This document shows, in pieces, positions 38,849 through 58,259 of a stretch of 64,000 bases of DNA (the stretch's first letter is position 1; each line of letters begins with the position of its first letter). The translations under genes and the position numbers were made by a program. The notes under the pieces were generated by a model that was not told the DNA's origin, ran no database searches, and worked only from the letters and a program-made list of their open reading frames with translations. This stretch comes from Nitrososphaeraceae archaeon (GTDB lineage: Archaea > Thermoproteota > Nitrososphaeria > Nitrososphaerales > Nitrososphaeraceae): positions 1-64,000 of the forward strand of contig JADDOW010000074.1 in NCBI GenBank assembly GCA_016782225.1. The letters are read 5' to 3'.

Positions 38849-38871
38849 AATAATTAATCATCAATGAGAGA

Positions 38872-38964
38872 GGTGGGGAAGGGATTCGAACCCTTATATA
38901 TTCGCTATCTGAATGGTATTTCCAAATTCTGCAGGCGAACGCATGGCCGCTCTGCCACCCCACC
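38872..38964 (-). tRNA. tRNA-Cys (GCA) with a 22-nt anticodon-loop intron
   Basis: Acceptor GGTGGGG/CCCCACC, D-stem GCA/TGC, anticodon stem TTCGC/GCGAA, T-arm AAGGG-TTCGAAT-CCCTT. Anticodon GCA after CT in the loop. Between bases 37 and 38 lies a 22-nt intron (38907-38928), the usual archaeal position. The mature tRNA is 71 nt plus the discriminator base, which is U (38871) as in all tRNA-Cys. CCA is not encoded. Confidence 0.9.
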
Positions 38965-58034: not shown

Positions 58035-58171
58035 TAGCCCGGAGCAGATTCGAACTGCTGTCTCCAGGTGTCTTTTCTACTATGAGATTCAGAGCCTGGA
58101 ATCCTTAGTCCCTTGGAGTTTGACCGCTAGATTCGGCACCAATGTTGTAGTTTTATTGGTTCGACCGGGCT
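58035..58171 (-). tRNA. tRNA-Gln (CTG), unusually long, probably three introns
   Basis: Acceptor AGCCCGG/CCGGGCT with discriminator A, T-arm AGCAG-TTCGAAT-CTGCT, anticodon stem CCAGG/CCTGG. Loop CTCTGA gives anticodon CTG; a 19-nt intron (58070-58088) follows base 37. The 5' part is too long: about 30 extra nt between acceptor and D-arm (58133-58164, with an ACCAAT/ATTGGT hairpin) and about 14 extra in the D-loop (58105-58128). Removing all three gives a normal ~73-nt tRNA. Exact splice sites are not fixed. Confidence 0.7.
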
Positions 58172-58259
58172 TCACGAGCTACCACTATCATAAAACTTTT
58201 CCACTATTTTATTTTATCTTTGACTAAAAATCAGAATACCTGTCTTTGAGTTATAATAT

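Follow-up and report, generated by a model that had tools for sequence, protein, structure and literature searches.

The bulge-helix-bulge (BHB) motif consists of a 4-bp helix between two 3-nt bulges, with each cut falling after the second bulge nucleotide. Caldiarchaeum subterraneum, which we take to be a relative of the Nitrososphaerota, offers a close comparison for the gene described here. It has 13 intron-containing tRNA genes, three of them with several introns, and the available text of its description mentions no leader element for these tRNAs (PMC3293823). Multi-intron tRNAs, noncanonical introns in Thaumarchaeota and a loop-bearing two-subunit splicing endonuclease (EndA) are already known from the accessible parts of the literature (PMC8450103, PMC4090602, PMC3218864, PMC6379350, PMC12397907). 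The multi-intron tRNAs of Thermoproteales, such as those of Pyrobaculum and Thermofilum, are similar to the present gene in holding up to three EndA-type introns, canonical and noncanonical, at relaxed BHB sites, as far as the available text of PMC4090602 and PMC3218864 goes. The present gene, on the other hand, belongs to a soil ammonia-oxidising member of the Nitrososphaeraceae; its intron at position 10/11 is missing from the positions given in the accessible part of PMC4090602, a list that closes with 'etc.', and a leader element of the kind reported below is unmentioned for Thermoproteales in the available text of PMC4090602 and PMC3218864.

Within the same phylum, introns of the same type are covered by the Thaumarchaeota-specific model of tRNAscan-SE 2.0, for which 107 noncanonical introns are reported, and the main text of that paper describes no gene like the present one (PMC8450103). 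The suggestion of the preliminary description that a multi-intron tRNA would be out of place in Nitrososphaerota is therefore not supported and, since such tRNAs are already described in the phylum, the three-intron gene is not in itself a new kind of finding. The split tRNAs of Nanoarchaeum and Caldivirga are similar in that flanking leaders pair so that the BHB site can form (available text of PMC3293823); in those genes the pairing joins the leaders of two separate transcripts, whereas here the leader of one transcript would pair with its own 3' acceptor strand. Neither such a leader element nor a tRNA gene with four introns was found described in the freely accessible main texts of the literature searched, and the novelty of both is provisional.

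The tRNA-Gln(CUG) gene and its three introns

The window, the whole stretch of 64,000 nt that was analysed, carries on its minus strand a 137-nt precursor gene of tRNA-Gln(CUG) at 58035-58171, exactly where the preliminary description had placed it, with the anticodon at 58092-58090 and a mature form of 73 nt. Read from 58171 to 58035, the precursor is laid out as AGCCCGGTCG-(30 nt)-TCTAGCGGTCAA-(15 nt)-GGATTCCAGGCTCTGA-(19 nt)-ACCTGGAGACAGCAGTTCGAATCTGCTCCGGGCTA. Intron 1 (30 nt, 58161-58132, minus strand) lies at position 10/11, between acceptor and D-arm, and contains the perfect 6-bp hairpin ACCAAT/ATTGGT already noticed there; its splice helix is CGGU(5-8)/GCCG, with bulges CG^A and AA^U. 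Intron 2 (15 nt, 58119-58105, minus strand) is the previously proposed D-loop insert and lies at position 21/22, at the 3' end of that loop, with the splice helix GGUC/GACU and bulges AA^A and AA^G, and intron 3 (19 nt, 58088-58070, minus strand) occupies the expected canonical 37/38 site, with a splice helix that, read from the sequence, contains one C-A mismatch. The earlier count of three introns was upheld by BHB folds at all three sites, including the two extra inserts on which it had been made to depend, by the spliced cloverleaf and by conservation.

Introns 1 and 2 are placed at 10/11 and 21/22 on the basis of outgroup genes that lack both, in agreement with the cut sites that follow from the BHB rule. 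The outgroup CTG genes L151 (family f12) and L148 (f19) have the anticodon intron only and an uninterrupted D-arm, and orthologues of genus g6 without intron 1 read straight through as AGCCCGGTCG|TCTAG; the canonical intron is present in the compared CTG orthologues except in the uninterrupted genes L150 and L156. In the collected forms, both introns show the 4-bp helix with 3-nt bulges. All 133 distinct forms of intron 1 keep a CGGT/RCCG helix with 3-nt bulges, this helix being the search condition, whereas the intron stem was left unconstrained and averages 4.5 contiguous pairs, as against 1.6 when the 3' halves are swapped between species, where none of 200 trials exceeded 1.86. The intron-2 helix occurs as GGUC/GACU, GGUC/GGCU, GGCC/GGCU and GGCC/GGUU. 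As judged from these compared genes, introns 1 and 2 covary, and the inserts of relatives differ in sequence yet retain the structure, which argues against chance. No outer exon-exon helix was found by eye beside intron 1, so that its motif is a relaxed one. In the minimum-free-energy fold of the window gene before splicing, the acceptor stem is retained and the intron-1 BHB does not appear.

Removal of all three inserts leaves 73 nt that ARAGORN recognises as a full cloverleaf tRNA-Gln(ctg), and from such sequence evidence we infer that the introns are actually excised, the locus being almost certainly a functional tRNA-Gln(CUG) gene with three introns. A tRNA pseudogene with degenerate inserts would suit the failure of ARAGORN to detect anything in the unspliced gene and the score of the Rfam tRNA model on the unspliced locus, which falls below its cut-off, but it is highly improbable given the perfect cloverleaf after splicing, the covarying inserts, the conservation of the exons, with a tRNA-Gln(CUG) gene detected in 64 of the 70 family genomes, and the fact that 58171-58035 is the one CTG gene detected in a Nitrosocosmicus-type genome of 2.62 Mb in 118 contigs that is rated 99.8% complete, where the second, normal tRNA-Gln(CTG) gene contemplated in the preliminary description was not found. 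A split or permuted tRNA was ruled out, as all exons are contiguous and in order. The self-splicing core of group I introns in tRNAs takes up at least about 200 nt, and this class was likewise ruled out for introns of 15-30 nt, the Rfam scan of the gene region having returned sub-threshold snoRNA noise only and no match at the gene. The window also contains a tRNA-Cys(GCA) gene with a canonical 22-nt intron at 38870-38964, on the minus strand.

Splicing endonuclease and intron load of the genome

The idea that the introns would call for an endonuclease tolerating relaxed sites gained support at the level of sequence, since the genome encodes two EndA paralogues, alpha (P0001, 183 aa) and beta (P0002, 229 aa). 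EndA alpha has Y120, H128 and K158, resembles 2cv8 and the Aeropyrum pernix structure 3p1z, and carries the Crenarchaea-specific Lys-Pro-Lys/Arg loop, its K38-P39-K40 aligning with K44-P45-R46 of A. pernix, a loop that has been shown to be important for broad EndA specificity. EndA beta aligns across the domain and lacks the catalytic histidine, so that separate catalytic and structural subunits are present, and a two-subunit EndA is also what is attributed to Thaumarchaeota in reviews (PMC4090602). At the level of sequence, these features support a putative (alpha-beta)2 EndA of broad specificity, which would tolerate relaxed splice sites.

Among the 40 tRNA genes recognised, 32 introns were counted (about 0.8 per gene), 17 of them at noncanonical sites, and each of eight genes contains at least two. 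The count was in part manual, with BHB search and ARAGORN applied as a check to 15 genes, and it belongs to an incomplete candidate list in which the His, initiator Met, Lys-CTT and Ala-GGC genes are unrecognised. In the available text of the tRNAscan-SE 2.0 paper, archaea as a whole are put at 0.21 introns per gene and Thermoproteales at 0.84 (PMC8450103). For the soil ammonia-oxidisers of this family, dense tRNA introns at multiple positions are the norm. In addition, tRNA-like 3' fragments were observed in the source genome (L033, L039, L040 and L045), which are possibly marks of integrated elements.

The leader element and its association with the 10/11 intron

An intron that consumes part of the acceptor stem poses a folding problem, as the tRNA end cannot form while the splice site is folded: the intron-1 helix takes the 5' acceptor strand, so that splice site and acceptor stem are mutually exclusive. 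Just upstream of the gene, the leader contains a candidate acceptor-strand decoy, GTAGCTCG (58182-58175, minus strand), which is an 8-bp complement, with one G-U pair, of CGGGCTAC, the 3' acceptor strand together with A73 and C74 (58041-58034, minus strand), and which grows to 9 bp with a further G-U at 58183. Both the mature 5' strand (58171-58165) and the leader can thus pair with this 3' strand. The complement is conserved through the family alongside intron 1 and is absent in the g6 genes without intron 1.

With the leader helix scored as present when it has at least five G-C pairs, it was observed in a phylum-wide sample in 29/30 tRNA-Gln genes with the 10/11 intron and 2/30 without it (Fisher p = 2e-13, which overstates the independence of these related sequences), and in all genes collected in 137/147 with the intron and 2/52 without. 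As for the ten exceptions with the intron, five still have a helix of 9-10 bp and one is a double count; the family member L090, whose intron 1 has a long stem and whose leader lacks a decoy, is a clear exception, and L070, L074 and L321 have weak leader decoys. The contrast between genes with and without the intron also holds within families (6/6 versus 0/4 in f43; 1/1 versus 0/2 in f57), and the helix was found in 0/28 other tRNAs of the source genome. Covariation of the leader was observed at nucleotide 74, where 42/57 are paired against 36.8 expected, a value reached by 0/1000 shuffles; it is limited to this nucleotide because the 3' acceptor strand hardly varies. A separate case is L278, a tRNA-Gln gene without the 10/11 intron and with other introns, whose leader complement TAGCCTGG is possibly a remnant.

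In the mechanism proposed, the leader of the precursor would base-pair with the 3' acceptor strand, leaving CGGU(5-8) of the 5' strand available for splice-helix formation with intron 1; the heteromeric EndA (alpha P0001, beta P0002) would remove the three BHB-type introns and the exons would then be ligated; and, with intron 1 out, the 5' strand would retake its place and RNase P would cut off the leader. As the leader would be removed only after the 5' strand has returned, intron 1 is proposed to be spliced before 5'-end trimming, a processing order that is predicted by the decoy reading and is testable. Taken as a whole, a three-intron gene with removal by EndA and a decoy leader is very probably the right explanation. 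The narrower claim, that the leader is a cis-acting decoy enabling the 10/11 splice site and enforcing splicing before 5'-end maturation, kept with the intron across Nitrososphaeria, Bathyarchaeia and Brockarchaeota, is favoured with less assurance; as an association the decoy is well supported, and as a mechanism moderately so.

Folding predictions point in the direction of a decoy for the collection of 147 precursors: when shuffled leaders replace the native one, the splice helix falls from a mean probability of 0.45 to 0.15, and the acceptor stem rises from 0.25 to 0.72. A separate folding run gave a similar result for the splice helix. For the window gene, the probability of the splice helix is 0.064 with the native and 0.075 with a shuffled leader, and another measure of the same helix gives 0.068 for the native leader versus 0.016, a small or absent effect, so that the effect of the decoy is seen on the collection and not on the window gene. 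The folding model does not predict that the normal acceptor stem fully re-forms after excision (mean 0.28, or 0.42 without the trailer). The lack of a clear folding effect for the window gene would fit real introns accompanied by a leader repeat without any splicing role, either a DNA-level element, such as a promoter or start-site motif, or a duplication scar from the origin of the intron, and many leaders are indeed a direct copy of the acceptor strand, GCCCGG, as a duplication would leave. This explanation is possible and the less probable one, because the leader-to-gene spacing ranges from 0 to 19 nt, unlike that of a promoter element; the Nitrososphaeraceae CTG copies, GTAGCTCG or TATAGCTCG, still pair, also with a changed trailer; and the copy is missing together with the intron in g6 and sister genes.

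That the leader copy is itself the mature 5' acceptor strand, with a longer intron removing the adjacent AGCCCGG, accords with the pairing of both copies to the same 3' strand but is very unlikely, as T8-N9-G10 follows the second copy only, the leader copy lies at varying distances from the gene and in the window has a G-U pair and no proper position 7, the cuts fall at 10/11 by the BHB rule, and intronless orthologues retain AGCCCGGTNG. With the leader read as a decoy, its association with the 10/11 intron suggests how archaea tolerate introns in the acceptor stem and would assign a function to such leaders.

Distribution of the introns among relatives

Differential intron patterns were observed among the relatives. 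In the family alignment, the g6 members shown have two introns, with exceptions including L089 and L093, which have three, and nearly all genera other than g6 have three. Introns at 10/11, 24/25 and 37/38 were observed in f11 and f14; introns at 21/22 and 37/38 in some genera of f12; and the tRNA-Gln(CUG) gene L144 of f5 carries, besides introns at 21/22 and 37/38, a further D-arm intron at another position, which suggests independent gains. In a phylum-wide draw of 397 genomes, the with-intron pattern was found in 24 and the uninterrupted pattern in 214, and the reversed control pattern was absent among the matches listed for the same draw.

The 10/11 intron also occurs in Bathyarchaeota and Brockarchaeota and in tRNA-Gln(UUG), including that of the source genome (L034, G000:C22:32041-32130), where a 17-nt 10/11 intron is accompanied by the leader decoy GCCCGG. 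Four introns per gene were observed in tRNA-Gln(UUG) of three different records, L206 (1882-2032, Bathyarchaeota DVMM_2), L310 and L311, at sites 10/11, 24/25, 37/38 and 53/54, and all three genes splice to a normal 73-nt tRNA; tRNA genes with four introns therefore occur, above the maximum of three per gene stated in the accessible parts of papers on archaeal tRNA introns (PMC4090602, PMC3218864). One further candidate, L318, was set aside as a three-intron gene, being a likely artefact of the splicing script. Moreover, an archaeal-type tRNA-Gln with the 10/11 intron was observed in a record titled Deltaproteobacteria (L236, CP070692.1), which is probably misbinned or mislabelled.
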